Shown here: positions 1,951 to 63,108 of the stretch, in pieces
How positions within the stretch are numbered: the first letter of the stretch is position 1
Layout of the letters: each line of letters starts with the position of its first letter
IMG/VR virus record: IMGVR_UViG_3300032245_001746
Span: 1-64,000 of that record
Length of the DNA: 64,000 nucleotides
Direction: 5' to 3' (one strand)
From: a virus
The notes under the pieces: generated by a model
Databases searched by the model: none
What the model saw: the letters and a program-made list of their open reading frames with translations, nothing else
Told to the model about the DNA's origin: nothing
Made by a program: the position numbers and the translations under genes

Positions 1951-3279
1951 ATGAAAAATTTAGAATTCAGAAAGTTTTACGTAGAAATGTCGCAACTAAA
2001 CAATCAAAAAGAGTTGTTGAAAGAAATAATATACAATCTTATAAATGGCAACAAATCATTTTTTTCAAAAAAAGGAATTTTAGCTCAAGAAAAAAGTGAT
2101 TATTGGATATTAAATTATTTAAATGGAAACGATAACAAAAACGAATACTCCAAATTAGTAAGAGGACTAGTTGTTAAAAAACCAGATGAAAATTACAACA
2201 ATGATCCTTTAACTTTAATAAATTCATTTCCTTTTACAAGATTTTTCAATAAAAATGAGCCACAAGCAGATCCTGTGGATTTAATAAATTCAGAAATGAT
2301 TGAAAAATTAGATGGAACTATGGTAGGAATTTTCTTTCCAAATAAAAATCCAAATAATCCAGAATTTCATACAAGAAAAATGTTGTCCACACATGGACCA
2401 GATATGAATTTAAATATGAGAACATTTTCTGGAGAAAATGTAACATATTTAAAAATAATCAAATCTTATGTGAATAAATTAAAGTTTTCTCAAAAAGATG
2501 TTGAAAATACATACGTATTCGAATTCATACATTCAACTTCTAAAGTTGTTACAAAATATACACCTGATCAGTTTGGATTATATTTAATAGGAGGAAGAAA
2601 TTTAATTACACATGAAGAATATTCTGAATCTGATTTAAATAAAATTGCACATGAAATTAATTCTAAACGCCCAAGATTATTTCAAGCAATTGCAGATCAT
2701 AATGAAATTACAAAAATGTTTAAAAAAGCTGCAGAATCAACACCTGATTTTGAGGGATTTATATTTAGAGATAAAAAAACTGGATCTCGCGTTAAAGTGA
2801 AAGATCCAAATTATGTTAAAAAACATCATGTATTAGAAAAAACAAACATAAAATCTTTAATTCCTGTTGTTTTAAACAATGAAGAAAATGAAGTTTTATC
2901 ATATTATCCAGATGTATTACCTAAAATTAAGTTAATTAAAGAAAAAATAAAACAATTCAAAAAAGAATTATTGGAAAAAGTACTTTATTGGAAAGATAAA
3001 AATTTAGATAAATCAACTTTGGCATCCATGTTTTTTGCAAAAAAAACAGGAAATAGATGGGACACAACATCTGAAAAACCAAAATATAAAGAAGAACCAG
3101 AAGTAAGATATTTCATAATGAAACATGTGAACAAATCTAAAGATCAAATCCAAGAAGAAATTAATAAAGAAATCAATACAATGGTATTTGGATTTAACAC
3201 TAATTTTGGAAATATTAAACGATTTATGGAACTCGTTGGAATTGAAGATAATGATGAGCCAACAGAAAGACAAGAATGA
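1951..3279 (+). CDS. T4 Rnl1-like RNA ligase
   Basis: 442 residues. Nucleotidyltransferase motif I is KLDG with the adenylated lysine at about K119 (EMIEKLDGTMVG). VFEFIH is motif III-like, FEGFIFRD motif IV and RVKVK motif V. Upstream, LVRGLVV...SFPFTRFFN matches the ECRG...PMEKFFN region of T4 RNA ligase 1. Rnl1 enzymes seal 5'-phosphate and 3'-OH RNA ends, classically repairing tRNAs cut by host anticodon nucleases. The N-terminus EFRKFYVEM fits the capsid-targeting-like motif. It starts 12 bp after the zincin-like gene, and its stop overlaps the MetAP start by 4 bp (ATGA). Confidence 0.85.
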   Translation: MKNLEFRKFYVEMSQLNNQKELLKEIIYNLINGNKSFFSKKGILAQEKSDYWILNYLNGNDNKNEYSKLVRGLVVKKPDENYNNDPLTLINSFPFTRFFNKNEPQADPVDLINSEMIEKLDGTMVGIFFPNKNPNNPEFHTRKMLSTHGPDMNLNMRTFSGENVTYLKIIKSYVNKLKFSQKDVENTYVFEFIHSTSKVVTKYTPDQFGLYLIGGRNLITHEEYSESDLNKIAHEINSKRPRLFQAIADHNEITKMFKKAAESTPDFEGFIFRDKKTGSRVKVKDPNYVKKHHVLEKTNIKSLIPVVLNNEENEVLSYYPDVLPKIKLIKEKIKQFKKELLEKVLYWKDKNLDKSTLASMFFAKKTGNRWDTTSEKPKYKEEPEVRYFIMKHVNKSKDQIQEEINKEINTMVFGFNTNFGNIKRFMELVGIEDNDEPTERQE

Positions 3280-4025
3280 TTTTAATAAAAAATAAAGAAC
3301 AAATTGATGGTATAAGAAAAAGTTGCCAATTAGCAAAATTAACACTAAATTATTTAGAACAATTTTTAGTTGAAGGCAACACTACAGAATTTATAAATCA
3401 AAAAGCCCACGAATTTATATTAAAAAATAATGCAATACCTGCACCTTTGAATTACAAAGGATTTCCAAAATCTATTTGTACTTCAATCAATGAAGTTGTT
3501 TGTCATGGAATTCCATCTGAAAAAGACGTGTTAAAAAATGGGGATATTATCAATATTGATGTTACAACAATATTAAATGGATATTATGGAGATACCAGTA
3601 AAACTTATAAAATAGGAACTTGTTCTTTAATTGCAGAAAAATTATTAAAAGTAACAAAAGAGTGTTTAGATATAGGAATTAAACAAGTTTATCCTGGTAA
3701 TCATTTTGGAAATATTGGTTATAAAATAAGTCAACACGCTGAACAAAATGGATTTTTTGTAGTTTATACTTTTGCTGGACATGGCGTTGGTGTCGAATTT
3801 CATGAAGAACCTATCGTATCTCACGTTTCTAAAAAAAATACTGGTCCAATTATGAAATCAGGAATGGTTTTCACAATTGAACCAATGATATCAGAAGGAA
3901 CCGCAGATTTGTTAATTTGTGAACAAGATGGATGGACAGCTAGAACGGCTGACAATAAATTATCAGCCCAATTTGAACACACCATACTTGTAACTGATTC
4001 TAAACATGAAATATTAACTATATAA
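3276..4025 (+). CDS. map: Methionine aminopeptidase, type I
   Basis: 249 residues, the length of bacterial type I MetAP. Metal ligands are visible: Asp in NIDVTT, Asp in YYGDTSKTY, His in GHGVGVEFHEEP, Glu in FTIEPMIS and Glu in AQFEHTILV. The substrate-pocket histidine lies in EVVCHGIPS. The enzyme removes initiator methionine from nascent proteins in the cytoplasm. It is translationally coupled to RNA ligase by an ATGA overlap, and its 3' end overlaps the convergent glycosyltransferase by 8 bp. With IF-3, bS21 and tmRNA in the same window, it extends a phage-encoded translation and maturation set. Confidence 0.95.
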   Translation: MILIKNKEQIDGIRKSCQLAKLTLNYLEQFLVEGNTTEFINQKAHEFILKNNAIPAPLNYKGFPKSICTSINEVVCHGIPSEKDVLKNGDIINIDVTTILNGYYGDTSKTYKIGTCSLIAEKLLKVTKECLDIGIKQVYPGNHFGNIGYKISQHAEQNGFFVVYTFAGHGVGVEFHEEPIVSHVSKKNTGPIMKSGMVFTIEPMISEGTADLLICEQDGWTARTADNKLSAQFEHTILVTDSKHEILTI

Positions 4026-6654: not shown

Positions 6655-7692
6655 TTAATTAGTTTTTGTTTTAGATTTTAAATCTAAAATAGAATCACAA
6701 GGATATTTATCCTCAAGTTCTTGTAACTCTTTTAATTTATTTAAATATTCCTCATTTAATTCATTATTTAATTTAGCTAATTGTAAATTAATTATTATAT
6801 CCCCAAAAACACCAGTATCATTTGATAAACCTTCTCTTTGAAGTCTTAATTTCATTCCACTATTAACATTTTTAGGTATCATTACATCTAAAGTTCCATT
6901 TAAATTAGGAATTGTAATTTTACCTCCAAAAAATAAAGTAGTGTAATTTACAGGAATTTTACAATGAAGATTTAATCCATCTCGTTCAAAAAAATCATGT
7001 TTTGTAATCTTTATTATAACAATTAAATCACCTCTATAATCTGTGCCTATACTGCCTTTTCCTCCTATAACCATATAGGAATTATCTTCTACACCTTTAG
7101 GAAAATTTAAAGAAATATTTTCATTTTCGCAATCAACACTGCCATTTACACATTTCTTACATTTATCTTGAAATTTACGACCTGTTCCATTGCATTCAAT
7201 ACAATCTGTTCTAATTGTAAATGTTTGATTTTTATTTTGATCATATTTAACATTTATTTTACCAGCACCAGCACATTTATTGCAAACAAAAATCTTTTCC
7301 CAACTTGTTCCATTACAATTATCACAAGGTTTTTTGACTGGAAGAGATATAGTTTTTGAACATCCCGTTGAAACTTCTTCCAAAGTTAATTCTACAACAA
7401 ATTTAACATCTAAACTTTGTCTATATCGTTGACGATTAATCGCCTCATTATATTGAGCAAAAACATCACCAACAGTAGCGTAACCAGAAGATGGATTATC
7501 GTATCTGTTACGTTTGTTTGGATCACTTAAAACGTCATAAGCTTCTATAACATCCTTATGTTTTTCTTCAGCTTGACTGTCATCTTTATTCAAATCTGGA
7601 TGATATTTTTTTGCAAGTTTTTTATAAGCTTTTTTAATATCTTCTTGTGAAGCATCTTTAGAAACTTCTAAAATTGAATAATAATCTTTCAT
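6655..7692 (-). CDS. dnaJ: DnaJ/Hsp40 co-chaperone
   Basis: 345 residues. The J domain (1-65) has HPD in [10 protein letters not shown]. The central zinc domain contains four C-x2-C-type motifs (CDNCNG, CNKCAG, CIECNG, CKKCVNG) at roughly 125-185. The C-terminal substrate-binding domain is typical ([26 protein letters not shown]). The G/F linker is very short. DnaJ stimulates DnaK ATPase; no DnaK is in this window, so it presumably works with host or distant phage DnaK. T4-like phages need chaperones for capsid folding, and the GroES-like gene lies directly upstream. Confidence 0.95.
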
Positions 7693-7767: not shown

Positions 7768-8121
7768 CTATTCTTCTACTAAAACACACTTGATCATATC
7801 TGGCAAAATCATATTTAATGATCTTCCATTTTTAGAGAGAATACCATCTACAGGAAAATAAGATCCTGCAACCATCACTCTATCGCCCACCTTGAAACCA
7901 AGATTTGGAGCAACACTAGGTCCAATATCCAAAACATAAGCTTGTTGAGAATCTTTTTTATTTGCTTCATCGGTAAGCAAAACAGATGTGGGAGATAATT
8001 CTACCTCTTTAATTCTTTCAATAAGAACCTGATTATTTGCTGGAACTACAGCAGTAATCATCCTTGGTACATTCATTACAACACTTGTTGGCTCGGTTAC
8101 AACATCTTTATTTTTTTTCAT
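7768..8121 (-). CDS. groES: GroES-like co-chaperonin
   Basis: 117 residues, slightly longer than bacterial GroES (about 95) because of a 25-residue N-terminal extension. The beta-barrel core shows NNQVLIERIKEVELSPTSVLL (mobile-loop region), YVLDIGPSV, FKVGDRVMVAGSYFPVDG and a final MIKCVLVEE strand. Phage co-chaperonins such as T4 gp31 cap host GroEL to fold the capsid protein; this is the likely role. The mobile loop is short and lacks the classical IVL-type tripeptide at the expected site, so GroEL contact would need testing. A terminator hairpin follows. Confidence 0.8.
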   Translation of the reverse strand: MKKNKDVVTEPTSVVMNVPRMITAVVPANNQVLIERIKEVELSPTSVLLTDEANKKDSQQAYVLDIGPSVAPNLGFKVGDRVMVAGSYFPVDGILSKNGRSLNMILPDMIKCVLVEE

Positions 8122-8164: not shown

Positions 8165-8716
8165 TTACGCTGTTTTTTTTGGAATTAAAACACAATTTAA
8201 ATTATTTCCTTCCAATTTAGGATCAATTTCAACACTAGAAACTTCTGACAAAGCCTCTTTTATTTTTTGTAAAACATTGTATCCTAATTCTTTATGAGCA
8301 TTTTCTCTTTTTTCATATTTCAAATTAAATTTGACTTTTAATCCAGAAGTTAAAAACTTTTTAGCAGCATTAATTTTAACATTAAGATCATGATCTCCAA
8401 TTGAAGGACTTAATCTTATTTCTTTCTCAGATAAAGCTTTTTGGCTTTTATTCTTTTCTTTTTGTTTAATAGATTTTTCATATTTAAACTTACTATAATC
8501 CATTATTTTACAAACAGGAGGATTTGCCATTGGTGATACTTCTACCAAATCTAGATTTTGATCTCTTGCAATTTTTTTTGCTGCATCTGTTGAGAATACG
8601 CCTAAATTTTTATCACCATCTACCAACATAACCTTTGGAACTCTAATCATGTCGTTAATTCTTGTTTTATCTTTTGAATTAAAACTATTTTCATTTTTGA
8701 TAAATTTTTTTAACAT
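8165..8716 (-). CDS. infC: Translation initiation factor IF-3
   Basis: 183 residues, full length for bacterial IF-3. The N-domain has RINDMIRVPKVMLVDGDKN and LDLVEVSPMANPPVCKIMDY (very close to the bacterial signature). A basic linker follows (EKSIKQKEKNKSQK), then the C-domain with KEIRLSPSIGDHDLNVKINAAKKFL and EKRENAHKELG. IF-3 binds the 30S platform, blocks 50S joining and discriminates initiator tRNA and start codons. A phage copy could bias initiation toward phage mRNAs, which fits the phage bS21 gene 4 kb away. There is a 19-residue N-terminal extension before the conserved region. No frameshift or missing block was seen. Confidence 0.95.
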   Translation of the reverse strand: MLKKFIKNENSFNSKDKTRINDMIRVPKVMLVDGDKNLGVFSTDAAKKIARDQNLDLVEVSPMANPPVCKIMDYSKFKYEKSIKQKEKNKSQKALSEKEIRLSPSIGDHDLNVKINAAKKFLTSGLKVKFNLKYEKRENAHKELGYNVLQKIKEALSEVSSVEIDPKLEGNNLNCVLIPKKTA

Positions 8717-8772
8717 AAATTACTTTTTTTACAATTTCCTTTTTTAAAATTAAAAATTAAACCCAATCAATT

Positions 8773-10086
8773 CTACATTTCTTTTGTAACACTGTTAACC
8801 ACTTTTACAACAAATCCATCACCACAATTTGGAAATCTTCGAACCCATTCAACACCTTCTAAATTTTGAACAGATGGAATTGTATTAATTCCTATATAAA
8901 TTTTAACATTATCTTGTAATTCAGAATTAAATTCTTTTAATTTAATACTGCAAACTCTAGTTTTCGTTTTTGGTGCCGAACTTATATTTATATAAGATAT
9001 TTGATTTATTACACTTTTTATGATTAAAGAATCTGCTTTATCATTAAATTCAATTTTAAAATTATTATCAACAGATCCAGCATGATAGTTTCCAACAATT
9101 TCATCTCGGTATTTAATATAACCTAAAGTTTTTATTTCTGTGCCTGGTTGTGTTGCATTAATTAATGAAATACCATTAGTATCATACACAGAAACAGAAA
9201 CGCTATTATCACCCTGATCCAGTATTGGAATTATACTTATTGATTCGTCCAAATTAATATTTGGTATTATTAATATATTGCCTTCATCATCAGGTGATTC
9301 TACTATTTTAATATCATCAGACTCAGATATAAAGATGTAATCATATAAAGATAAATTAGATTCTACTTCTAAAATAGAATTTTTATAATCAAATTCATAA
9401 CTAGATAATTCTAAATCTTTAGTTACAAAAATTGAATCAGACCCAATATTGTATTGTAAGATAGAATCAAAATTAAAAAACAACTTGCTGTTTTGTGGTA
9501 TTACTTTCATTAATTTAAATTCCATCCAATAACAACCAGATAACATGGTATCATTTTGATTCCAATTATAAATTAAATTTGATTGAATTAATTGATCTTT
9601 TATTACATTTCCAGTAATATTAATTATATCATCATAAACTAATTCAATACCACCAAGACTAGAAATTATTCTGTAAATATAGAATGTCGTACCTTTTTTC
9701 CAAGTATTAGCAGCCGTATTATTTAAACCTCTTAAAACAGTAATTTCTTTTGTGTTTTCGTCAACTGACATAACCTGCATGTATTCTGGCGTTCTAGGAT
9801 GATCAAAAAACAACAAATCACCAATTAACAATTGATTAAATCCTATATCGTTTGCTAATAATATTTTATTTTCTACAGACAAAATTGTTTTTTTTAAAAA
9901 AGATTTTGTCCACATATTAACTTCAACAACAAGATTTGGATCTGTTAAATCCATAATTCCAGAACAATCTTCAACACTAATTCTGACAGCAGGATTAGTG
10001 TCATATCTTTTTATTGTGAAATCAGGCTGTAACGAATCACATTCACTTGTTGAACAATTAGAATTGCAATTATTGTAATAAGACAT
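8773..10086 (-). CDS. Putative virion (baseplate/tail-type) structural protein
   Basis: 437 residues from ATG 10086, chosen because AAAGGA lies 6 nt upstream; an in-frame GTG precedes it. The N-terminus is Cys/Asn rich, then FTIKRYDTNPAVRISVEDCSGIMDLTDPNLVVEVNMW resembles the beta-sandwich start of phage structural proteins. The middle has a PRTPEYMQVMSVDENTKEITVLRGL segment and WNQNDTMLSGCYWMEFKLMK. The region after residue 210 is beta-rich and repetitive. No exact family named. Translationally coupled (TGATG) to the dCMP deaminase gene upstream. Confidence 0.55.
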   Translation of the reverse strand: MSYYNNCNSNCSTSECDSLQPDFTIKRYDTNPAVRISVEDCSGIMDLTDPNLVVEVNMWTKSFLKKTILSVENKILLANDIGFNQLLIGDLLFFDHPRTPEYMQVMSVDENTKEITVLRGLNNTAANTWKKGTTFYIYRIISSLGGIELVYDDIINITGNVIKDQLIQSNLIYNWNQNDTMLSGCYWMEFKLMKVIPQNSKLFFNFDSILQYNIGSDSIFVTKDLELSSYEFDYKNSILEVESNLSLYDYIFISESDDIKIVESPDDEGNILIIPNINLDESISIIPILDQGDNSVSVSVYDTNGISLINATQPGTEIKTLGYIKYRDEIVGNYHAGSVDNNFKIEFNDKADSLIIKSVINQISYINISSAPKTKTRVCSIKLKEFNSELQDNVKIYIGINTIPSVQNLEGVEWVRRFPNCGDGFVVKVVNSVTKEM

Positions 10087-10583
10087 CACGTTCCTTTAAG
10101 TTTGTTGAAATGTTGTATAATTTCATCAAAATTTTGATTATATTGAATCAATTCAACATTGCCAAGTTCAGCAATTAATTTTGATTTTTCTATCTCTGAC
10201 TCATCTAACAATTTAGAACCAAAACCAGAATAGTATACATTATATATGCCAGATCTAACAATATCTAACATACAACTCTTACAAGGAAACATTGTTACAT
10301 ACATGCTCGATCCAGTTAAATCTTTTCCTTTAGCATGCCAAATAGCATTATCTTCAGCATGATGTACAAAAGAGTATTTATTTGGTCTTGTCCAATCAAC
10401 TAAATCATCTTTTATTTGTTTTGGAACTCCATTATACCCTGAACTAATAGGTTGATTATCATTACTAACAATAATAGCACCAACTTGTGTACTTGGATCT
10501 TTGGATCTCATTGCTGTCATATATGCAAGATACATATAATAATCTTGTTTAGAAATAACATTTCTTGGAGGTGTCATATTCAT
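10086..10583 (-). CDS. dCMP deaminase
   Basis: 165 residues. Zinc and catalytic motif HHAEDNAI (H-A-E, with Glu as proton shuttle) and the PCKSC zinc ligands in VTMFPCKSCMLDIV are both present. The N-terminal YMYLAYMTAMRSKDPSTQVGAIIV is standard for the deoxycytidylate deaminase family. It converts dCMP to dUMP, the substrate of the thymidylate synthase encoded at 49729. T4 carries the equivalent enzyme (gene cd). It overlaps the virion-type gene downstream by a TGATG junction and follows the 11123 gene by 3 bp. Confidence 0.93.
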   Translation of the reverse strand: MNMTPPRNVISKQDYYMYLAYMTAMRSKDPSTQVGAIIVSNDNQPISSGYNGVPKQIKDDLVDWTRPNKYSFVHHAEDNAIWHAKGKDLTGSSMYVTMFPCKSCMLDIVRSGIYNVYYSGFGSKLLDESEIEKSKLIAELGNVELIQYNQNFDEIIQHFNKLKGT

Positions 10584-10586
10584 ACT

Positions 10587-11123
10587 TTATTTTAATATAT
10601 TTTCAAAAAGTTTTGCTTGTTCGTGAATTTCTGTAGCAACAACAATGTGCCTGCTTTCATTATACCAACTTTTAACAGAATAAAAAGAATCTTTATTGTT
10701 AGTTAAATGTTTTAAATGAAAAGGAACTTTTGTTTCACAAAAAAGCGTATTTGAAACACAATAATTATTGTTTCCGTTAAATTTTAATCCCATCCTAGCA
10801 ACACATCTTCTAATTGCAATATCATTGTAATGATCACTTTTACCTTTTTGTGTTTTATAATCTAGTCCAGATTCCAAATCTTGATATGAATGAACAAAAA
10901 CATTTTTATTATTTTTTAATAAATCTTTTAAAGAAACGAAATTTTTCATTAAGTGATGATAAAAAGAATCTTCATAAATTTGTAAACCTAATTGTAAAGA
11001 ATACATTTGTTTACCAATATAAAAAACCCAAAACCAATTGCCTTCACCAACTGTTTTATTGACTTTTTCAATAAAAGAATCTCTTTTATTTTTTAAATCT
11101 GATACTTTTATTATATCAATCAT
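10587..11123 (-). CDS. Hypothetical protein (178 aa)
   Basis: 178 residues, mixed alpha/beta, aromatic rich (GNWFWVFYIGKQMYSLQLGLQIYEDSFYHHL). A central IAIRRCVARMGLKF segment is followed by NNYCVSNTLFCETKVPFHL. No catalytic signature stands out and I do not recognise the family. It overlaps the acidic/basic low-complexity gene by 4 bp and precedes dCMP deaminase, so it is in the same transcription unit. Confidence 0.6.
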   Translation of the reverse strand: MIDIIKVSDLKNKRDSFIEKVNKTVGEGNWFWVFYIGKQMYSLQLGLQIYEDSFYHHLMKNFVSLKDLLKNNKNVFVHSYQDLESGLDYKTQKGKSDHYNDIAIRRCVARMGLKFNGNNNYCVSNTLFCETKVPFHLKHLTNNKDSFYSVKSWYNESRHIVVATEIHEQAKLFENILK

Positions 11124-11446
11124 GTTTTTTCTTTATTGTTTTTATTATCTTTCTTTTCTAAAGTTTTATTAGATTTATCATCTTTCTTTTCTAACTTTTC
11201 TTTATTTTTATCCTCTTTTTCATCTTTTTTTTCTGGTTCATCCTGACTTTTTTCTTTTTCATCCTCAAGATCTTTTTTATTTTTTTTAGTTTTATCTTGA
11301 TTTTTTTCTTTATTTTTTTTATCTTTTAAAGAAGACAATTCTTTTTCTAAAGAGTCTAGTTGGTTCAACCAATTATCTAATCGATTTGCATCTAAACTTT
11401 TTGATATTTTTTTATTCTTCCAATCTTTGAGTTTTAATAATTTCAT
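11120..11446 (-). CDS. Charged low-complexity protein
   Basis: 108 residues from ATG 11446 (an upstream in-frame ATG at 11464 would overlap the previous gene further). After MKLLKLKDWKNKKISKSLDA comes a helical segment LDNWLNQLDSLEKELSSL. The rest is nearly all K, E, D and N in repeated KKDEKEDKNKEK blocks, probably a coiled coil or disordered. The start is loosely like the capsid-targeting-like peptides but lacks the Glu, so it is not counted among them. It overlaps both neighbours. Function unknown. Confidence 0.55.
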   Translation of the reverse strand: MKLLKLKDWKNKKISKSLDANRLDNWLNQLDSLEKELSSLKDKKNKEKNQDKTKKNKKDLEDEKEKSQDEPEKKDEKEDKNKEKLEKKDDKSNKTLEKKDNKNNKEKT

Positions 11447-11768
11447 GATAATATTTATCAACATTGTGTCTTTTTATTTTTAATTTACCTTTTTTTATTT
11501 TTTCCATTTTTTCTAAATCAAAAGTTTTTAAAGCTAATTTGTATTCAATTTCTAATTTTTTACATTTAGATATAATTAATTCTTTTACTCTTTTTCTACA
11601 AAAAAAACCTGTATGCTGTACAAATCTTGTTAAATTACCAAAATTATAGTAATAAACTACAGCAGCTTTAGCCATTTCGGTTCTAAATGCCTTTAAAATA
11701 TATGATTTTTCTTTTGGCAAAATTATATTTTGAAAATCACCAGATATTAATTTTAAATCTTTTTCCAT
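11412..11768 (-). CDS. Hypothetical basic protein, possible helix-turn-helix
   Basis: 118 residues, basic. The segment FRTEMAKAAVVYYYNFGNLTRFVQHTGFFCRKRVKELI looks like a helix-turn-helix unit, and the C-terminus (KIKKGKLKIKRHNVDKYYHEIIK) is strongly basic, so nucleic-acid binding is possible. This is an impression from helix pattern and charge only. First gene of the minus-strand run that contains dCMP deaminase; divergent from the lipoprotein gene. Confidence 0.55.
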   Translation of the reverse strand: MEKDLKLISGDFQNIILPKEKSYILKAFRTEMAKAAVVYYYNFGNLTRFVQHTGFFCRKRVKELIISKCKKLEIEYKLALKTFDLEKMEKIKKGKLKIKRHNVDKYYHEIIKTQRLEE

Positions 11769-11832
11769 GTTTTTAATCGATATTAATAAATATTATAACA
11801 ATATATAAATGAATTAAATACAGGAGGTTTTT

Positions 11833-12354
11833 ATGAAAAAAAATATATTTTTGGGTTTATTTTTAATAATATGTGTTGGATGTGGAAGAATATCACCAAT
11901 ATCACCAGAATTAGATCAAAGATTAAATAATACTGATGGTAAAATTGATGAAATTAGAAATAACCAAAATGGATTAATGTTGGAATTAGGAAAAATAAAT
12001 CAACAACAAGAAATTATTGGACGCGATATAGAAAACGCACAAGAAGGAATAATAAATTTAAAAGGATCAAGCAACTCTGGTGTTCAAATATTTTCTGGAG
12101 ATGCTGGATTTTTAATGTTTTTTATAATGATTTTTGCATTCACGTATTCAATTTTACATTATAGAAATAAATTTGTAAAATCTAATAAAGTTTCAGAAAT
12201 ATTAGCTCAACAAATAGCTATAAAAAATGATCTTGAACTAGAACAACAAGTATTTATGTCTGCTTTAAACACAGAAGTAGAAAAAGATGTTTATAAAATA
12301 ATATCAAGACATCAAAATGCAATTAAAGCTTTAAATATTAAAAAAACTACTTAA
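11833..12354 (+). CDS. Putative lipoprotein with coiled coil and second membrane segment
   Basis: 173 residues. The signal MKKNIFLGLFLIICVGCG has a lipobox-like CVGC, with Cys at -3 instead of the usual Leu. Residues about 28-75 form a coiled coil (LDQRLNNTDGKIDEIRNN...), then a second hydrophobic segment FLMFFIMIFAFTYSILHY near 97-114 and a helical cytoplasmic-type tail. It has the strongest ribosome-binding site in the region (aggagg, 5 nt before ATG). A membrane-associated phage lipoprotein could act in lysis (spanin-like) or exclusion; the extra membrane span argues against a classical o-spanin. It converges with the 12347 gene (8 bp overlap). Confidence 0.65.
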   Translation: MKKNIFLGLFLIICVGCGRISPISPELDQRLNNTDGKIDEIRNNQNGLMLELGKINQQQEIIGRDIENAQEGIINLKGSSNSGVQIFSGDAGFLMFFIMIFAFTYSILHYRNKFVKSNKVSEILAQQIAIKNDLELEQQVFMSALNTEVEKDVYKIISRHQNAIKALNIKKTT

Positions 12355-12607
12355 CATTATATCCTTGAGATATATGTTTTAACACTGGATATCCTTGACA
12401 ATTATCCCCAAGTGGTAATATTTGATTAGGATTAGGTTTTAACTTTTCTTCTTTTACAAGTTTGTCAATTTTAGATTTAAGTTCTTTTTTGTGTTTTAAA
12501 CAATTAAATTGCCCTGGATTATCATCACAGGGCATTAAATATCTACAACATCTTGAACCTTCATGTAAAAGACATATATCTATAACATGTTCTTGAGTTA
12601 ATGACAT
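12347..12607 (-). CDS. Small Cys-rich protein with CCRYL motif
   Basis: 86 residues. Five of the six cysteines cluster in the first half (ICLLHEGSRCCRYLMPC and FNCLKH), and one more comes late in GDNCQGY, suggesting a small metal-binding fold. I associate the CCRYL-plus-C-x-K arrangement with small phage proteins of unknown role. It is the last gene of the bS21 - RHH - Cys-rich minus-strand unit. Confidence 0.55.
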   Translation of the reverse strand: MSLTQEHVIDICLLHEGSRCCRYLMPCDDNPGQFNCLKHKKELKSKIDKLVKEEKLKPNPNQILPLGDNCQGYPVLKHISQGYNVK

Positions 12608-12620
12608 TAAAATATTTCTT

Positions 12621-12893
12621 TCAATCTTGAGATTCTAAAGTATTAATTATAACTTGAACTCTTTCAGATAACCATTTTTCCAATTGTTGCTTATCATTTT
12701 TAACATTATTTGGAATTTTTACAATAATTGGAGTAAATTCATCCTCGGAATCTAATAATTGCATGTGTTTTTCAACAACATCTCTTATATACTCCGATGT
12801 AGTCTTGCCAAGTTTTTTAGCACATCCAATAACTTTATTTTTAAATTCCAAATCGGCAGCAACCGACATGTTTTTTATTTTTTTTACAGTCAT
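12621..12893 (-). CDS. Ribbon-helix-helix DNA-binding protein
   Basis: 90 residues. The beta strand NMSVAADLEFKNKVIGCAKKLG and helix KTTSEYIRDVVEKHMQLL match the CopG/MetJ-like ribbon-helix-helix fold, which dimerises and reads DNA with the paired strands. The C-terminal half contains another helix pair (VKNDKQQLEKWLSERVQVI). It is coupled to bS21 by an ATGA overlap, so it could autoregulate that unit; no operator was identified. Confidence 0.65.
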   Translation of the reverse strand: MTVKKIKNMSVAADLEFKNKVIGCAKKLGKTTSEYIRDVVEKHMQLLDSEDEFTPIIVKIPNNVKNDKQQLEKWLSERVQVIINTLESQD

Positions 12894-13165
12894 ACAAAAT
12901 TGTCCTTACAAACATCATAATTTTGTTCTTTAACAACTTTAAAAGATTCTCTAAACTTATTAGCATTAGCTTCTTTAATTTTTCTTCTACGCTTTTCGCC
13001 CTTACTCTCATAAAATTGTTTCTCTTTAAATTTAGTAAGAAGTCCAGAATCGTTTACTGCTTTTTGGAAGCTATGAAGTAATATTTTAAAATTTCTTTCT
13101 CTTTCATCATACGATGCATTTGGATGCAAATGTTTTGCTACTACTTTAATTCTTGTGATCGACAT
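12890..13165 (-). CDS. rpsU: Ribosomal protein bS21
   Basis: 91 residues. The core RNFKILLHSFQKAVNDSGLL, then FKEKQFYESKGEKRRRKIKEAN, follows bacterial bS21 (x-R-F-K-R-x-C-E-K-A-G-x-L, then R-R-x-F-Y-E-K-P-x-x-x-R-K-R). bS21 sits next to the anti-Shine-Dalgarno site on the 30S platform and affects initiation. Phage bS21 genes are known in huge phages and are thought to steer host ribosomes. A 17-residue N-terminal extension and a 22-residue C-terminal extension flank the core. It overlaps the RHH gene downstream. Confidence 0.9.
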   Translation of the reverse strand: MSITRIKVVAKHLHPNASYDERERNFKILLHSFQKAVNDSGLLTKFKEKQFYESKGEKRRRKIKEANANKFRESFKVVKEQNYDVCKDNFV

Positions 13166-18626: not shown

Positions 18627-21260
18627 CTATATTACAATTAATTCTGGTTTCTTTTTAGGCTTAACAACATCCATAAAAGGACGCTTCATTACTAATAATC
18701 TAGTATCATCTTCTTTTTTTTCTGGAATTTCTTTCCATCTAATAGCTTTAGGAGGACTGTCAAATGTATAATTCTTAAAAGGAGGTTCTGGTTTCTTTAA
18801 CCTTATTTTAAGGAAATTACCTTTTCTAATATCAGACTCCCAATATTCTAAATCAGAAGCAAATCTTTGATAATCGACATCCCAAAAAGTTACTTTAAAT
18901 TTAAAAGAATCGGAATCCTCCATAGTAACCTCATAATATACAGTACCTTTAGCAGATTCTTTACGCTTTGGTTTTTCTATAACCTGCGCTTCAACCATAG
19001 AAATACAAATATTATCTTTAGAATCAAAATCAGAAATGGTAAATCCACCAGAATAATCTGGACTTGAGTCCATCAAATGATTCCAACTAAATCCATAACA
19101 AGAAGATTCTGCGACTTGTACTGGTTCATTAAACAATTTTTGCAAATCTTCATCAATTTCTACTTGAATATCAAATTCATCTAATGACAACAAAGAATCT
19201 TGCTCATTTTTAAGAACATTGCTTTCTTTGGATTTTTTATATTTCTTCAATAACTTCCAAGTTTCATGTATTATATCTTTTTGTTCGTTTGAATCAATAA
19301 TTTCTTCACGAAACTTAAAATCATTAAATGATTTAAATGAAGTTTCATCAAAATTTTCAAATTTATCAAAAAATAATTCTGAGAATTCATCTTCAAAAGA
19401 AACTTTCAATTCCAAAATTAATTTAGAAACACTTTTAGCATATCGATCATTTCTTGACGAAATCTTTTTTTGCTCTTCTTTAAAGTATTCATAATATGAA
19501 TATAATTTAGTTCTGTCTGCGTCTTTAAATAATCCAAGAGAAATTAAAGGTTTTAAAACCTTTGCATCTGTACCGAATCGACTTAAAAAATCAACAAATG
19601 AAGAATATGGTTGATTTTCAACAATTCTTTGTGCCACTTCTTCTCCTATTCCTTTTATATTAGAAAATCCAATATAAATTTCATCATCAACAATAGAAAA
19701 ATTATCTTTAGACTTATTCAAATCTAAAGGTTTAATTTTTACATTCATACTTTCAGCTTCTCTTCTATATTCTTTTATTTTAACATCATCTTTTACAGAT
19801 TTTAATATTCCAACAAAAAAATCTAATGGATAATGTGCTTTTAAATATAAAAGGCGAGCAGACAAAATTGTGTAACAAACAGCATGACTTGAATTAAATC
19901 CATATTCGGCAAAAGCTTCTATTTGAGTCCACAATTCTTCAACTTGTTCTTTTGTCCAAGCTAAAACTTTTTGTCCATTTTCAATAAACATATCTTTATA
20001 TTTTTGAAATACTTTAACTTTCTTTTTGGAAATTGCTTTTCTTATTATTTCACAATGCATTTCTGGAATTCCGCCAACAACATTCAATATTTTTAATGTT
20101 TGCTCCTGAAAACACATAACACCATAAGTTTTTTTCAAAATTGGCTCTAATACTGGATGCAATTCATAATATTCTCTTCCCTTTTTTCTTTCAATAAAAC
20201 GTTCATCCATTTTCATAGATAATGGACCTGGACGGTAAATAGACGAATAAATTACCAAATCATAAAAAATATCAACACCACCCTTTTTAACCATTTCTCT
20301 AATACCATCAGAGTCAAACTGAAATATGCATTTTAATCTACCTTGATTCGCTAAATTTAATGCTTTCAAATCAGTAATATAAGCATCTTCATTAGACCAG
20401 TCTGGACAGTTTTCATAAGCACAAATAGAACTTATTCCCAATCTTTGTTTGACAGATTTAGTTATTTGAGCCAACTGTGTTAGATTAGATAATCTTAACG
20501 TATCTATCTTAATAAGACCCAAAGGTCCCAAATCAGTTCCTAATAATCCTTCACCAAAAGCAGAAACATATTTATCACTTTCTGTTTTAACGAACGGAAC
20601 TATATTGTCAATTCTTTGATTTGAGATAATCAAGCCACCAGCATGAGTGCCAACTGTTTTGTTTCTGTTAATTATTCTTCTTACTACATCTGCAACTTCT
20701 GGATTTTCTTCGCAATATTTGCGTAAGTCTGGATATTCCTCAATTGCTTTATCTAAAGATAAAACTTTTCCATCTTCATCTTTAAGACCAATTTTTGTAG
20801 TTATATTTAATATTTCATTACGATCTTTATCGTAAACCCTTGCAGCATCTAAAAATGATGATTTAATCTTAAATGTTCCATATGTTCCAATTGCACATAC
20901 ATTATCTTCACCAAACGTTTTTGGTGCCCAAACATTTCTTATGTAATCACATACTTCATCCTGAAAGTCCGTATCAATATCAGGAAATTCGCCCTGAACC
21001 ATTCGTGGCTCAATATTTATGTCAAAATTATCAACCATACCTAAAAGGTAAGTTATCAACAAATTATTTTCATTATTTTCAAACTTATCGCCATTTTTAA
21101 ATAATTCAAAAATATAATCAAATTCCATTTGATTATCAATTTGTTTGATTTCGTATAAAAGTCGGTCTTGATGTTTTTTATCTTCATTTAATCCAAGTTG
21201 CTTTAATTTTAAATAACAAGCACTTATTATCTCTTTTTTTGGATCAACAGAAACACTCAT
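18627..21260 (-). CDS. dnaE: DNA polymerase III alpha, catalytic C-terminal half
   Basis: 877 residues. It lacks the PHP domain and the GPGRG[SC] palm segment. The palm catalytic motif is PDIDTDF at residues 93-99. Typical DnaE blocks follow: GTHAGGLIIS, GLIKIDTLRLSNL, CIFQFDSDGIREMVKKG, YRPGPLSMKMDERFIERKKG, EYGFNSSHAVCYTILSARLLYLKAHYP, the helix-hairpin-helix (FSNIKGIGEEVAQRI) and a C-terminal OB-type domain (KGTVYYEVTMEDSDSFKFKV). The N-terminal about 90 residues look like a decayed copy of the segment normally preceding the motif (DRLLYEI, YLLGMVDNFDI). The missing half is encoded at 33042. Stop/start overlaps couple it to the SLOG-like gene. Confidence 0.92.
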   Translation of the reverse strand: MSVSVDPKKEIISACYLKLKQLGLNEDKKHQDRLLYEIKQIDNQMEFDYIFELFKNGDKFENNENNLLITYLLGMVDNFDINIEPRMVQGEFPDIDTDFQDEVCDYIRNVWAPKTFGEDNVCAIGTYGTFKIKSSFLDAARVYDKDRNEILNITTKIGLKDEDGKVLSLDKAIEEYPDLRKYCEENPEVADVVRRIINRNKTVGTHAGGLIISNQRIDNIVPFVKTESDKYVSAFGEGLLGTDLGPLGLIKIDTLRLSNLTQLAQITKSVKQRLGISSICAYENCPDWSNEDAYITDLKALNLANQGRLKCIFQFDSDGIREMVKKGGVDIFYDLVIYSSIYRPGPLSMKMDERFIERKKGREYYELHPVLEPILKKTYGVMCFQEQTLKILNVVGGIPEMHCEIIRKAISKKKVKVFQKYKDMFIENGQKVLAWTKEQVEELWTQIEAFAEYGFNSSHAVCYTILSARLLYLKAHYPLDFFVGILKSVKDDVKIKEYRREAESMNVKIKPLDLNKSKDNFSIVDDEIYIGFSNIKGIGEEVAQRIVENQPYSSFVDFLSRFGTDAKVLKPLISLGLFKDADRTKLYSYYEYFKEEQKKISSRNDRYAKSVSKLILELKVSFEDEFSELFFDKFENFDETSFKSFNDFKFREEIIDSNEQKDIIHETWKLLKKYKKSKESNVLKNEQDSLLSLDEFDIQVEIDEDLQKLFNEPVQVAESSCYGFSWNHLMDSSPDYSGGFTISDFDSKDNICISMVEAQVIEKPKRKESAKGTVYYEVTMEDSDSFKFKVTFWDVDYQRFASDLEYWESDIRKGNFLKIRLKKPEPPFKNYTFDSPPKAIRWKEIPEKKEDDTRLLVMKRPFMDVVKPKKKPELIVI

Positions 21261-24231: not shown

Positions 24232-27200
24232 TTATGCCTTTTTAATTACACTGTTTACTTGATTAATTATATGATCTTTTCTTAATTGTACGTTAGAACC
24301 CATCAATACAGAAACCATTCTTTCTGATTCTGCAAGATCGTTTAACTCTAATTTTATCAATCTTCTGTTTTCAACATTCATTGTTGTGTCAGCCAATTGA
24401 TCAGCATCCATTTCTCCCAAACCTTTAAATCTAACCACTTTCGATTTAGGATTTTGTTTCACTAATAATTGCATTTCTTGATCAGTCCATGCAAATATTC
24501 TACTTTTACCCAAATCAACACAATATAAAGGTGGTTGAGCCAAATATAAATGACCATTAGCAACTAAAGGCTTCATGTATCTGTAAAAGAATGTTAACAA
24601 TAAAGTCGAAATATGACAACCATCATCATCGGCGTCTGCCATTAAAATGATTTTATTATATCTTAATTTTTCAATGTTAAAATCTTCTTTAATTCCAGTT
24701 CCTATTGCTATAATCAATGATTGAATTTCTTTATTTTTTAATAAAGAAGCAATATCTTTCTTTTCAGCATTTATAATTTTACCTCTAATTGGCAAAATTG
24801 CTTGAAATTCTGGATCTCTTCCGTCTTTTCCTGATCCGGCTGCACTATCGCCTTCCACAATAAACAACTCTGAAATTGCAACATTTTCAGTATTACAATC
24901 ATAAAGTTTTCCTGGCATTCTATTAGATTTTCCAAGAAAACCTTTTCTTTTAATTAGGTCAGATTGTTTTTTAGCCGCTGTTCTTGCCTCTTGTGCAATT
25001 AATGCTCGTTCTACAATTTTTTTAACAATAGGTGCGTTTTTATCAAAAAACGAAGTCAGCATATTTGTAGTTAAATTACTTACTACAGTTTCAGCTTCTG
25101 TTGATCCTAATTTTGACTTAGTTTGTGACACAAATTCTGGTCTTGGAAATCTAATACTCACAATTGCAGACAAACCTTCTCTTACATCATCTCCATTTAA
25201 ATTAGGAGCATTTTCCTTTATTAATTTATTATTTCTAGCAAATGTGTTAACAACTCTTGTCAATGCAGTTTTAAAACCAGAAACATGAGTGCCACCATCA
25301 GTAGTTACAATATTATTTACAAAAGATATAATAGATTCGTCATCATCATTAGAATATAATAAAGCTATTTCAACTTGACATTGTTGTCCTGGTCTTGAAG
25401 TCAAATCAGATTTAGCAGAGGCATAAATAGGAGTTGCAGGATAAGTATCCTCTTTTCCTTCAGATAAATATTTTAAATAATCTACTATTCCGCCATCAAA
25501 ACAAAAAGTTTCATTAATTCCAGTTGATTCATTAATAAATGATATTTTTAATCCTTTATTAAGAAATGCCATTTCTTTTAATCTTTTTGTAATGATATTA
25601 TCATTGTATTTTATACCATTTTTAAAAATTTGCTTATCTGCATGCCATTGAATTTTTGTTCCAGTTTGTTTATCTTTCTTATCTAAAGATCTTATTTTTT
25701 GAATTTTACCTTTAGGCTTACCTTCAGAAAAAGATTGTTGCCATAAATATCCATCACGATGAACTTCTGCCACTAATAAATCTGATAAAGCGTTAACACA
25801 AGATGCGCCAACACCATGTAAACCACCAGAAGCGTCATAGCCTGATCCAGAACCACCAAATTTTCCTCCTGCATGAAGTACAGTTAAAACCACTTCTAAA
25901 GCTGATTTCTTTTCTGTTGGATGCATATCAACTGGAATACCTCGACCATTGTCCTCAATAGAAATTGTTTCACCATCTTTTTCTATTTTTATTTTTATTT
26001 CATTACAATGACCTGCCATTGCTTCATCAATTGAATTATGAAGTAAAATGCCTCCGCTGCCACCTACAAAATTTTCATCATCTTCAACTGAAAAGTCATA
26101 AACAAAAGGATGATTTTCACCATCAATTTTTTTGATTGATTTTATTTTTAATGCACCTAAATCGCAATTATTTTCTTTTGCATAATAACATCTGTAAGAT
26201 TTTTCATTTCCAATATACCATTCTACTTTATTTTTATAAAAACTAAAACTTTTTTGTATACTAAGCAACAAGTAAGAAAATTGATTTATTAAAACTTTAC
26301 TTGAAGACGTATATGCAAGTTTTTGTTTTAATTCTATGTTTTTATTTATAAATTGATTAGTTGGATAACCATCACCACTACTCATGGCAAAAACAAGTAA
26401 TTCTCTCTGTCTATCAGAACAATTCCAAATAAAACTAGGAATTGATTTCTTATAACAATTTCTTCCTAACTTGAAATAATCTGTAATCACAGCCACTGCT
26501 TTATTACAATAAACATTATTTGCAGTATCATGTGCTGGTCTAGTGCTTGGATTAAATCCAAAACAATTTTTAATTGTTTTTATAACTTGTTTTAAAAATT
26601 TTAATTCATGAGATCCAACAGATAACACACAATCTAGCATATCTTTGTTTGGTCTATGTCTCACACATCCTTCAGCTAAATAATATCCAACAAATTTAAT
26701 AAAATCATCATTAATATTTAAATATCTATTTATTTTAGATTTTTTGAATCCAATTTTACATTTTTTAGGAACTTTAGATTGTAAACCAAGTTCTACTATA
26801 AGTTTTACAGGAACATAACCAAACCTTTTAAAATTTGAATAATAATTAGAAGGCTTATTTTCTTTAATTAACCAGTCTTTAATTAAAGATCTATTTAATC
26901 TTATAAAATCTGAAATAGATTCAAAATAAACGTTAGAACCTTTATGATTATAAAAAATATCTAAACAATCTAATTCTTCATTGTAATCAACATTGTTTAA
27001 ATCCACTTTACTTGGAACTATCACATATTGACCTTCAATTAAATCTTTTGTTTTGATTGATTTAAATATTGAATCATTACATTTTGTAAATAGCGAATGG
27101 CAATCAGTTACATTTACTTTCAAGTTATTTTGTAATTTGACTTCATATAAATCATGACTTGTTTTGTGTTTGTATAATCTAGTTATTTTCTTCCAATGCA

Positions 27201-27498
27201 TCATTCCTTTTTTTGAAGCAGAATATGCATACATTTCCAGACCAGAAGAGTCAAAACTATTTGCATCTCCAGGAATATATTTGTCAATAATATTTCCTAT
27301 TTCAATTAAATTGAATTTATCATCTTGTTTAATTAAAACAAGCGTATCTGATGTGACAGAATTATCACATATCTCCCATACTAAATGATGTAATCCTTTA
27401 GTATCACTATCTCCAACATACATTCCTGGATTAAATCTTACTGCATCTAGTCCTTCTAAAACTCTAATTTGAGATGCATCATAATTATTTTTTGTCAT
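24232..27498 (-). CDS. gyrB: DNA gyrase subunit B containing an intein
   Basis: 1088 residues including a 442-residue intein (26035-27360), leaving an extein of 646. Extein GHKL ATPase motifs: EICDN/SIDEAMAGH across the splice junction, ISIEDNGRGIPVD and LHGVGASCVNALS. The TOPRIM domain has LFIVEGDSAAGSGKDGRDPEFQAI and ILMADADDDGCHI, then FKGLGEMDADQL. The intein splits the essential Asn-Ser of the ATP-binding EVVDNSIDEA motif, so splicing is required for activity. The ATG overlaps the upstream stop (TAATG). Confidence 0.95.
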   Translation of the reverse strand: MTKNNYDASQIRVLEGLDAVRFNPGMYVGDSDTKGLHHLVWEICDNSVTSDTLVLIKQDDKFNLIEIGNIIDKYIPGDANSFDSSGLEMYAYSASKKGMMHWKKITRLYKHKTSHDLYEVKLQNNLKVNVTDCHSLFTKCNDSIFKSIKTKDLIEGQYVIVPSKVDLNNVDYNEELDCLDIFYNHKGSNVYFESISDFIRLNRSLIKDWLIKENKPSNYYSNFKRFGYVPVKLIVELGLQSKVPKKCKIGFKKSKINRYLNINDDFIKFVGYYLAEGCVRHRPNKDMLDCVLSVGSHELKFLKQVIKTIKNCFGFNPSTRPAHDTANNVYCNKAVAVITDYFKLGRNCYKKSIPSFIWNCSDRQRELLVFAMSSGDGYPTNQFINKNIELKQKLAYTSSSKVLINQFSYLLLSIQKSFSFYKNKVEWYIGNEKSYRCYYAKENNCDLGALKIKSIKKIDGENHPFVYDFSVEDDENFVGGSGGILLHNSIDEAMAGHCNEIKIKIEKDGETISIEDNGRGIPVDMHPTEKKSALEVVLTVLHAGGKFGGSGSGYDASGGLHGVGASCVNALSDLLVAEVHRDGYLWQQSFSEGKPKGKIQKIRSLDKKDKQTGTKIQWHADKQIFKNGIKYNDNIITKRLKEMAFLNKGLKISFINESTGINETFCFDGGIVDYLKYLSEGKEDTYPATPIYASAKSDLTSRPGQQCQVEIALLYSNDDDESIISFVNNIVTTDGGTHVSGFKTALTRVVNTFARNNKLIKENAPNLNGDDVREGLSAIVSIRFPRPEFVSQTKSKLGSTEAETVVSNLTTNMLTSFFDKNAPIVKKIVERALIAQEARTAAKKQSDLIKRKGFLGKSNRMPGKLYDCNTENVAISELFIVEGDSAAGSGKDGRDPEFQAILPIRGKIINAEKKDIASLLKNKEIQSLIIAIGTGIKEDFNIEKLRYNKIILMADADDDGCHISTLLLTFFYRYMKPLVANGHLYLAQPPLYCVDLGKSRIFAWTDQEMQLLVKQNPKSKVVRFKGLGEMDADQLADTTMNVENRRLIKLELNDLAESERMVSVLMGSNVQLRKDHIINQVNSVIKKA
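26035..27360 (-). mobile_element. GyrB intein with LAGLIDADG endonuclease domain
   Basis: In-frame insertion of 442 codons. It starts at Ser (VTSDTLVLIKQDD follows) directly after EICDN and ends GGILLHN before the +1 Ser of SIDEA. Block A-like start, FVGGSGGILLHN end, and two LAGLIDADG-type motifs, FVGYYLAEGC and LVFAMSSGDGY, identify a homing-endonuclease intein. Ser instead of Cys at position 1 is allowed. It sits in the ATP-binding site codons, a typical functionally constrained target. Confidence 0.92.
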
Positions 27499-32784: not shown

Positions 32785-33045
32785 TTATTTATGTTTAATT
32801 AATTTGTTTAATTTGATATTTTCATCAAAATAAATAGTAATTGATCCTTTATATTTAGTCTCATATGGAGCACCTTCAAAACGCTCTAGATGAACTACAT
32901 TATCAAATTCATCTGTAATATAAAAACCATAAAACAAAAAACTTGAATAAAAAACAAATTTATTTTTTCCAAATTTCAATTTATTACAAAAACTATATGG
33001 ATTATTAATATCAGAATAAAGATTAATTTTATAATTTTGGTTCAT
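32785..33045 (-). CDS. Hypothetical protein (86 aa)
   Basis: 86 residues from ATG 33045, which overlaps the polymerase-half stop as ATGA. Predicted all-beta (INLYSDINNPYSFCNKLKFG, FVFYSSFLFYGFYIT, KGSITIYFDENIK). Aromatic rich. No family recognised. Translationally coupled to the PHP/polymerase gene. Confidence 0.6.
   Translation of the reverse strand: MNQNYKINLYSDINNPYSFCNKLKFGKNKFVFYSSFLFYGFYITDEFDNVVHLERFEGAPYETKYKGSITIYFDENIKLNKLIKHK
32786..32792 (-). promoter_or_regulatory. ATAAATA late-promoter-like box before the ART-like gene
   Basis: Minus-strand ATAAATA 5 nt upstream of ATG 32780 with no ribosome-binding site between. It overlaps the 3' end of the 32785 gene. Confidence 0.4.
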
Positions 33046-60771: not shown

Positions 60772-63108
60772 TTATTCCTCTAACTCATTAATAAATTCTG
60801 GTGTTTCAACTTCTTCTTCATCACCATTTTCATTAACAACTTTTTCTACAATTGTATTACCTGTAGCTAAATTCACAGCATTAGTGTGAATCAACATATA
60901 TGATTCTACTTCTTCTTTTGTAGAAAGATCAATCAATTTTGGATTATCCAATAAAACTTGCAAAGGTACATCATTTCTGGTCAATGATGCTTTGAAATTA
61001 TAATTCTCTGATGACGCAAATGCTGGTTTAACTGTATAATTACCTTTAGATGATAAAACTACTCGTTCGCATGCAACTAAAATAGAAAGAAGACCGCCTA
61101 AAGGATTTATTCCATGTTCGAAAAACAATTGTACTCCTTCAGTACCAATTCCAGGTGGACAATTTCTGCTCTTTTTGTTTTTAAATTTTAAATTAACACC
61201 TAAAGGCATACCATTTTTATTTTCAATTGATTTACCAATTGAAGTTCTTAACCTACATGATGCATAAAACTCTAATGATTTGCCACCACCAGCATTAGTT
61301 TCTGGTGAATTGTGAACAATAGCTCCATCAACAATATAAGAATGATTTCCTTCTACAGTAATATCAAATTTTTTCTTACTAATTGTAGGAGGTTTTTCAT
61401 AAATATCAATAATTTCAGAAGGAACTGCTTTATAACAAAAACATCCATCTGGCTCTGAAATTTCATAAGAAAAATTATTTCTAAATGAATTTTGTAATTT
61501 ATAATTCATACTTGGATGAATATATGGTGCAATAATTTCATGTAATTTTTTAGTATTTTCACTATTAAATTTTAATCCTTTATCAAATTCTTGACAATCA
61601 AGATCAAATTTTTGTTTTAACATTTCCTTTAATTGTGTACGATTATTATATTTAACACAATAAATAACAGATTGTCCATTACCCCATTTCTCGGCTGATC
61701 TATAACTACCATCATCCATATACCAAATAGCTAATCCTAAAGGAGATAAATTTTTCATAACTTCAAATGGAACACAATAATCTTCTTTATATTTACCAAG
61801 ATCTATTAATTCATACATTGGAATAGTATCGAAACCAATTCTATTATATTTTATATTATCAACGAAAGAATATCCAACCCAAGGATTTAAAATTTCTTCT
61901 TTCCATTGACAATATTCAGTTTGTTCTAAACCATGATCAATACGTAATTGGGCACAAGAATTATTTTCTGGAGTTCGTATTTCTCCATCACCTAAAATCG
62001 AACCATATACAACTTGTTTTTGATCTTCAGATAAGTAATAAGGTTGTGAAACAAGAATATTATCACCAATGTTCAAATCTCTAGCACTTACTTCTTTAGA
62101 AGAAATATTATCCCAAGAATAACCCTTATATTCATCAAAGTTTTTTAAATGTGGAATAAAAATTTGATGATTTGGCGTACAAGCAAATTGTGTTCTACCA
62201 TTTCCTCCACGTTTTCTAACAATAAATTGCAAAAATTTTTCACTTTCTTGTAAATTACCATTATTGTGACATTCAATAATTTTCTTAGGTTCAATATTAC
62301 CATTTTCTGGATTAAAAGACAGAACTTCTAATCCAATCATATTTTGATTAACTATTTTACCAATTTTCATTGTTGAACCATCAGCTAATACAACACGAGA
62401 ATCATATTGAAAACAACCATACAAAACTCCAATTTTACTTCTAATTTGATTAATAATATATAAAGTAGCATTATTTTCATTTATAAATGGATTAATTTTT
62501 CTTAAAAGATCTCCTGCCGCTCTTGCTCTTTCGCCAGGTCTTTCAGACCCAACAGCTTTTAATTGTGCAGCCGTTGGATTTTCAGGCAATCCGATTTCTG
62601 ACCATTCTCTTTCTGTTGGAGAAACCCCAATAGAGTCCCAAACAAAAAGTATTGGTATATCTTTACCATAATGCTTTCTAATAGCATTAGTAGCTGATAT
62701 TATTTTCTTTTCAACTTCTTCTATTGAAATTGGTTCATAAGTAATAAGTCTTGAAGTATTTAAATGTGCAGCTTTTTCTGCAAATTCAGCATTTCCTGCT
62801 CTTTCGCAATCAAGTAATACAGCTATTCCATTTAATCGTTGACAAGACGCTAAACAACAATAACCCAATAAAGACTTACTTGTTGCTGGTGGACCAAAAA
62901 CCTCAGTTATTCTTCCACCCGGAATACCACCAGTCGCAAACCTACCAGAACACATGTAATTTAAAGCTAAATTACCAGTATCAATAAAATAAGGACATTT
63001 TCCAGCAGTATCTAATGTATTAGCCTTAGCAGTTTTAAGTAATTCTGAAAACAGATCATCACTTTTTGAGTCATTTACTTCTTCTTTTTCTTGTTTTCTT
63101 TTAGCCAT
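60772..63108 (-). CDS. recA: RecA/UvsX recombinase containing an intein
   Basis: 778 residues with a 369-residue intein (61309-62415), leaving an extein of 409. Extein: Walker A GPPATSKS (72-79), VLLDCERAGN (RecA E96-like), FVWDSIGVSPTEREW, INQIRSKIGVLYG/SPETNAGGG (L2 loop) and FYASCRLRTSIGK. The C-terminal tail is acidic (EEVETPEFINELEE). It catalyses strand exchange for recombination-dependent replication, like T4 UvsX, with the SSB encoded just upstream. The intein lies at the end of the L1-L2 core, so splicing is needed. Good gagg ribosome-binding site. Confidence 0.95.
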   Translation of the reverse strand: MAKRKQEKEEVNDSKSDDLFSELLKTAKANTLDTAGKCPYFIDTGNLALNYMCSGRFATGGIPGGRITEVFGPPATSKSLLGYCCLASCQRLNGIAVLLDCERAGNAEFAEKAAHLNTSRLITYEPISIEEVEKKIISATNAIRKHYGKDIPILFVWDSIGVSPTEREWSEIGLPENPTAAQLKAVGSERPGERARAAGDLLRKINPFINENNATLYIINQIRSKIGVLYGCFQYDSRVVLADGSTMKIGKIVNQNMIGLEVLSFNPENGNIEPKKIIECHNNGNLQESEKFLQFIVRKRGGNGRTQFACTPNHQIFIPHLKNFDEYKGYSWDNISSKEVSARDLNIGDNILVSQPYYLSEDQKQVVYGSILGDGEIRTPENNSCAQLRIDHGLEQTEYCQWKEEILNPWVGYSFVDNIKYNRIGFDTIPMYELIDLGKYKEDYCVPFEVMKNLSPLGLAIWYMDDGSYRSAEKWGNGQSVIYCVKYNNRTQLKEMLKQKFDLDCQEFDKGLKFNSENTKKLHEIIAPYIHPSMNYKLQNSFRNNFSYEISEPDGCFCYKAVPSEIIDIYEKPPTISKKKFDITVEGNHSYIVDGAIVHNSPETNAGGGKSLEFYASCRLRTSIGKSIENKNGMPLGVNLKFKNKKSRNCPPGIGTEGVQLFFEHGINPLGGLLSILVACERVVLSSKGNYTVKPAFASSENYNFKASLTRNDVPLQVLLDNPKLIDLSTKEEVESYMLIHTNAVNLATGNTIVEKVVNENGDEEEVETPEFINELEE
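61309..62415 (-). mobile_element. RecA intein with LAGLIDADG-type endonuclease domain
   Basis: 369 codons between KIGVLYG and SPETNAGGG. It starts CFQYDSRVVLADGSTMKIG and ends YIVDGAIVHN with a +1 Ser. Hint block RTQFACTPNHQIFIPH (B-type TxxH) is present. Homing motifs YGSILGDGEI and LAIWYMDDGSY. From memory, the start resembles the Mycobacterium leprae RecA intein (CMNYSTRVTLADGS), at the same insertion site, which would suggest spread across very distant hosts. Confidence 0.95.

Follow-up and report, generated by a model that had tools for sequence, protein, structure and literature searches.

Genes for translation initiation factor IF-3 and ribosomal protein bS21 are linked in a conserved block of a large tailed phage and in other phage lineages

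The viral record IMGVR_UViG_3300032245_001746 is a tailed-phage sequence of 319,857 bp that carries a terminase gene at 198864-199433 and 12 tRNAs. In its first 64,000 nucleotides, the stretch analysed here and referred to as the window, the genes for translation initiation factor IF-3 and ribosomal protein bS21 lie on one strand (-) with 4.2 kb between them, and they belong to a block of genes that is listed in Table 1 together with two other translation-related genes. These two, encoding a methionine aminopeptidase (MetAP) and a tmRNA, had been predicted to accompany the IF-3/bS21 pair, and both were found. MetAP lies outside the block and on the opposite strand, and the gene for SmpB is present in the same phage record at 96449-96832, beyond the window. 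Elsewhere on the minus strand of the window, GyrB-like (24232-27498), DnaE-like (33042-35666) and RecA-like (60772-63108) genes each appear by eye to contain a long intein-like insert with a His-Asn end. The alpha subunit of DNA polymerase III is seemingly split, also as judged by eye, between minus-strand ORFs at 18627-21260 and 33042-35666 that are separated by about 12 kb.

Table 1. Genes of the bS21-to-IF-3 block and other translation-related genes in the window
Feature	Position	Strand	Evidence
Methionine aminopeptidase (MetAP, M24)	3276..4025	+	Peptidase_M24 3.2e-46
DnaJ co-chaperone	6655..7692	-	DnaJ 1.2e-24, DnaJ_C 6.8e-31; same place in relatives
GroES-like co-chaperonin, directly downstream of IF-3	7768..8121	-	Cpn10 1.5e-5; phrog_3188
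Translation initiation factor IF-3, 183 aa, ATG start	8165..8716	-	Pfam IF3_N 1.6e-28, IF3_C 4.7e-28; phrog_9787
438-aa protein, block member directly upstream of IF-3	8773..10089	-	weak tail-protein match phrog_1101, 3e-3; synteny
dCMP/cytidine deaminase-like protein	10086..10583	-	homologue in LR756511.1; synteny
118-aa protein, block member	11412..11768	-	synteny
86-aa protein, block member	12347..12607	-	41% identity to LR756511.1 protein; synteny
Ribbon-helix-helix (RHH, CopG-type) protein	12621..12893	-	RHH_1 in orthologues L177, L186; synteny
Ribosomal protein bS21, 91 aa	12890..13165	-	PF01165 34.5 bits
tmRNA, tag GETVRLAA	29678..30043	-	ARAGORN; RF00023 76.6 bits

The IF-3 of the window is complete, as the original prediction had it. 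The IF3_N and IF3_C domains and the linker are found in one protein, both Pfam matches are far over the cut-off, the alignment to solved bacterial IF-3 chains spans the protein from end to end, and the best PHROG match is to phrog_9787, 'translation initiation factor' (1.5e-46). A longer start does not fit, because the frame is closed by a TAA one codon before the ATG. We aligned the C-domain to that of E. coli and compared the positions that we take to be those of the functional basic residues: R116, R129 and R147 are changed to lysine, R99, R112, R131 and R168 are replaced, and R133, H137 and K110 are retained (E. coli numbering). The best bacterial matches of the protein have 44-47% identity and are scattered across several phyla, so no host was assigned from IF-3 similarity.

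The bS21 of the window scores above the PF01165 cut-off of 27 bits, retains the Gly and Tyr anchors of the helix-Gly-helix core, and is the only bS21 found in a search of the whole 319,857-bp record. It had been described as carrying extra arms at both ends. Counted from the conserved Gly and Tyr anchors, it exceeds the E. coli protein by 14 residues on the N-terminal side and by 6 on the C-terminal side. We compared 35 distinct phage bS21 sequences, and every one has an N-terminal extension, of between 7 and 48 residues relative to E. coli; on the C-terminal side many of them do not exceed the E. coli length. The N-terminal arm is therefore real, but the C-terminal arm is marginal and is not a general feature of the relatives. 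A search of viral contigs for close relatives of this bS21, or of the one in the phage LR756511, found none.

The block itself is conserved. In the phage collection the closest IF-3 (48% identity) belongs to LR756511.1, an 'uncultured phage' record of a 595-kb huge phage, in which bS21 precedes IF-3 by 5.6 kb in the same orientation, with the intervening genes in the order of the window. Counting four lineages from IMG/VR (L177, L186, L180/L181 and L190/L215), six lineages share the block, and their IF-3 sequences cluster on the IF-3 tree (SH-aLRT 94; the fork is shown as unresolved). The order in the relatives is a glycosyltransferase-like protein of 402 aa, a 388-aa protein, bS21, RHH, peptide deformylase, the 86-aa and 118-aa proteins, dCMP deaminase, the 438-aa protein, in some of them a TPP enzyme, and then IF-3, GroES and DnaJ. 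The deaminase is present in five of the six lineages and was not detected in L190. GroES followed by DnaJ is found downstream of IF-3 in the window and in four relatives (L177, L186, L180, L190), and neither was seen within 6 kb downstream of IF-3 in LR756511.1. In all six lineages bS21 and the RHH gene behind it are separated by -4 to +12 nt; in the window the beginning of the RHH gene and the end of bS21 share 4 bp, and the RHH protein, coupled in this way to bS21, could act as a regulator of the block. Peptide deformylase is encoded between the RHH and 86-aa genes in 5/5 sister lineages. The corresponding slot in the window is reduced to positions 12607-12621, with the gene cleanly gone, and a search of the whole phage genome found no deformylase; the gene has been lost in the window lineage.

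The original prediction had proposed a survey of co-occurrence in other phages, which we carried out with IF-3 as bait in IMG/VR and the phage collection, searching the longer records whole for bS21 and the flanks of all IF-3 loci with a local bS21 profile as well. Two viral contigs (L149 and L188) were excluded as probable bacterial sequence, because rpmI/rplT adjoin infC in them. After removal of duplicates the set comprised 104 phage records with IF-3, many of them fragments, which form 55 clusters at 70% identity. Some of the baits were themselves taken from linked cases, so the proportions that follow are not a measure of prevalence. In 16 clusters (36/104 records) bS21 is directly downstream of infC, always on the same strand, and in nine it lies non-adjacent within 10 kb, again on the same strand. 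For the remaining clusters, bS21 is further away in four, undecided in three and not detected in 23, some of which are short contigs. The pair is thus not obligatory, given these 23 clusters, which include all five of the RaK2/121Q-like relatives checked.

Where the two genes are adjacent (L132, L137, L140, L182, L196, L206 and Vibrio phage 2.275.O, L087, among others), the gap between infC and rpsU is -17 to +19 nt, with the exception of one 86-nt overlap. In that locus (L168:9950-10931, plus strand), the overlap is between IF-3 and, in another frame, a long ORF that contains bS21; it may reflect the choice of start or a frameshift. The gene directly upstream of infC is clpX in 22 of the 36 adjacent records, and a further five show a 62-nt overlap of the predicted starts; matches to the zinc-finger and AAA domains confirm the ClpX assignment. 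Pseudomonas phage MIJ3 and MIJ3-like phages have clpX and rpsU joined directly, with infC absent between them. The window phage does not have the clpX-infC-rpsU order, as its rpsU is 4.2 kb upstream and a search of its genome gave no match to the ClpX zinc finger. In the 20 kb read around the adjacent IMG/VR loci we found phage enzyme families and no structural hallmark.

This linkage is not a bacterial leftover, because bacterial infC sits with rpmI/rplT (78/80 loci) and none of the 80 bacterial loci has bS21 within 2 kb of infC. The proximity of the two genes might instead be due to chance, or to an old gene order that is inherited vertically and has no joint function. The order is indeed inherited within the clade of the window, and in the largest phages, LR756501 and LR756504, the two genes are widely separated and lie on different strands. 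The adjacent cases, too, are confined to a single region of the IF-3 tree and involve only three changes that are explicable by one gain and two losses. Against such an origin, same-strand linkage recurs in several different arrangements: bS21 adjoins IF-3 on its downstream side, lies 4-8 kb upstream of it, or follows it at 1.4-7 kb or at 17-19 kb. When each separate lineage is counted once, IF-3 and bS21 share a strand and lie within 10 kb of each other in 4/8 [binomial P = 7e-5; Fisher P = 4e-5 for the distances across lineages], the eight lineages having been hand-picked from a quick IF-3 tree with many open forks. We therefore regard chance or simple inheritance as quite improbable. Linkage in many phages argues that the two proteins work as a set.

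The two proteins had also been suggested to favour phage mRNAs that appeared to be leaderless, and this part of the prediction was not supported. The anti-Shine-Dalgarno (anti-SD) duplex at positions -20 to -5 has a mean energy of -2.7 kcal/mol before the genes of the window and of -1.3 in coding controls (P = 3e-4), and an SD-like 4-mer precedes 43% of 54 phage genes compared with 9% of coding controls. With motifs commoner and duplexes more stable than in the controls, the phage genes therefore use SD sites at least in part. For the pair itself, the bS21 gene has an AAGGA-type SD at about -12 (duplex -6.1 kcal/mol), and upstream of IF-3 we find only an AAGG about 20 nt away. In E. coli, IF3 on the 30S subunit discriminates against leaderless mRNA (PMC8138138), although the same paper cites IF3 on the 50S/70S as promoting leaderless initiation, so that the opposition is not absolute. 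Ribosomes without bS1, uS2 and bS21 translate leaderless mRNA, while bS21 is needed for SD-led mRNA (E. coli; PMC4929434). The SD enrichment and the published data on both proteins lead us to reject the leaderless reading as it was stated, and a leaderless version of an initiation bias is disfavoured.

Several known phage groups resemble the window phage in part. The presence of bS21 in huge phages, on which the original prediction drew, is published: the portion of the huge-phage study considered here (Al-Shayeb et al. 2020, PMC7162821) lists IF1, IF3, S1, S4, S21 and L7/L12, reports tmRNA/SmpB, tRNAs and deformylase, describes basic extensions at the N terminus of S21, and suggests that initiation on phage mRNAs is preferred. 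The window phage shares with this set IF3, the S21 N-extension, tmRNA/SmpB and tRNAs, but it lacks the deformylase, and that portion of the study does not describe the IF3-bS21 linkage or a conserved block. The bS21 phages of freshwater Bacteroidetes (Chen et al. 2022, PMC9723584) are likewise about 300 kb in size with one bS21. In their clades a-e, however, bS21 is surrounded by terminase, portal and capsid genes and runs on the opposite strand, whereas the bS21 of the window is on the same strand as its non-structural neighbours and about 186 kb from the terminase (record coordinates). The Bacteroidetes proteins have an aromatic residue at the position of F. johnsoniae Tyr54 (PMC9723584); in an ungapped alignment to 7JIL the window has Ala68 there, with Phe71 three residues away, and a gapped alignment might give another residue. 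Work on Sinorhizobium phage AP-J-162 and Agrobacterium phage Atu_ph07 notes IF-3, S21 and L7/L12 together in one phage, reads them as redirecting translation, and notes clpX beside IF-3 (PMC11242549). In Atu_ph07 we find bS21 1.4 kb from IF-3; the gene order of these phages differs from that of the window phage, which has no clpX zinc-finger match. Vibrio phage 2.275.O, the only named phage isolate that we found with an adjacent pair, has IF-3 and RpsU3 separated by 10 nt and followed by an L7/L12/ClpS-like gene. Its IF-3 is 32% identical to that of the window, and its bS21 is directly downstream rather than 4.2 kb upstream. That phage IF-3 and bS21 redirect initiation is thus a plausible idea that has already been published (PMC7162821; PMC9723584; PMC11242549). 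What this analysis adds is the genomic linkage of the two genes and the conserved block; we found no description of the linkage in the literature searched, an absence that is not in itself proof of novelty.

The 30S platform is where both protein families act, in agreement with what had been predicted, and the phage members are intact; the simplest reading is therefore that the phage proteins join host ribosomes. A Pelagibacter-phage bS21 is reported to be incorporated into E. coli ribosomes (PMC9723584). On the reading that we favour and consider reasonably probable, phage IF-3 and bS21 would be taken up by the host 30S subunit as a single module, replacing or joining the host copies. IF-3 would occupy the platform and the interface between the subunits, with bS21 next to the 3' end of the 16S rRNA, a position in which it affects SD pairing. 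A single gene block would make IF-3, bS21 and the chaperones, and in the relatives the deformylase as well. Initiation on the 30S would in this way be maintained during infection, and probably be shifted towards leadered, SD-type phage mRNAs. The basis of this reading is the two intact proteins, their same-strand linkage, the six-lineage block, the recurrent linkage elsewhere and the SD-like motifs; from these we infer host-ribosome binding, co-expression and any preference for phage mRNAs.

The phage might alternatively replace exchangeable initiation parts that run short once host expression stops, with no preference for its own mRNAs. Both proteins look canonical, as this would lead one to expect, and the neighbours are general supply and folding genes (GroES, DnaJ, deaminase). 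The infC gene of E. coli is autoregulated through its AUU start, and phage infC, with its AUG start, would escape such control. Simple supply by itself leaves unexplained both the particular linkage of bS21 to IF-3 and the N-terminal extension in all of the compared phage bS21s, and we think it unlikely as the whole explanation, while still a serious contender. Neither protein has a feature that alone predicts a preference for phage mRNAs, and the sequence does not decide between a supply of parts and a biased choice of mRNA. It is far less probable that the proteins serve to repair or protect the 30S platform and the 3' end of the 16S rRNA when a defence system or an RNase toxin has attacked them. 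The phage does encode a ribosome-rescue set (tmRNA and SmpB), and evasion of defences is mentioned as an option in PMC9723584, but no defence target or counter-defence gene was tied to the block, and none of the present results leads in that direction.

Beyond entry of the pair into the host 30S as one module, we tentatively propose a more specific version, which we hold with clearly less confidence. Large phages may keep together a dedicated takeover module of IF-3 and bS21, often as a clpX-infC-rpsU operon and, in the clade of the window, with a deformylase and chaperones, that would rebuild the 30S platform and re-tune start-site choice as a unit. If phages do keep the two genes as a unit, phage remodelling of the ribosome would become testable with two small proteins, and Vibrio phage 2.275.O, an isolate in which the genes are adjacent, is suited to such testing. 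A virus could then alter start-site choice without making a ribosome of its own.
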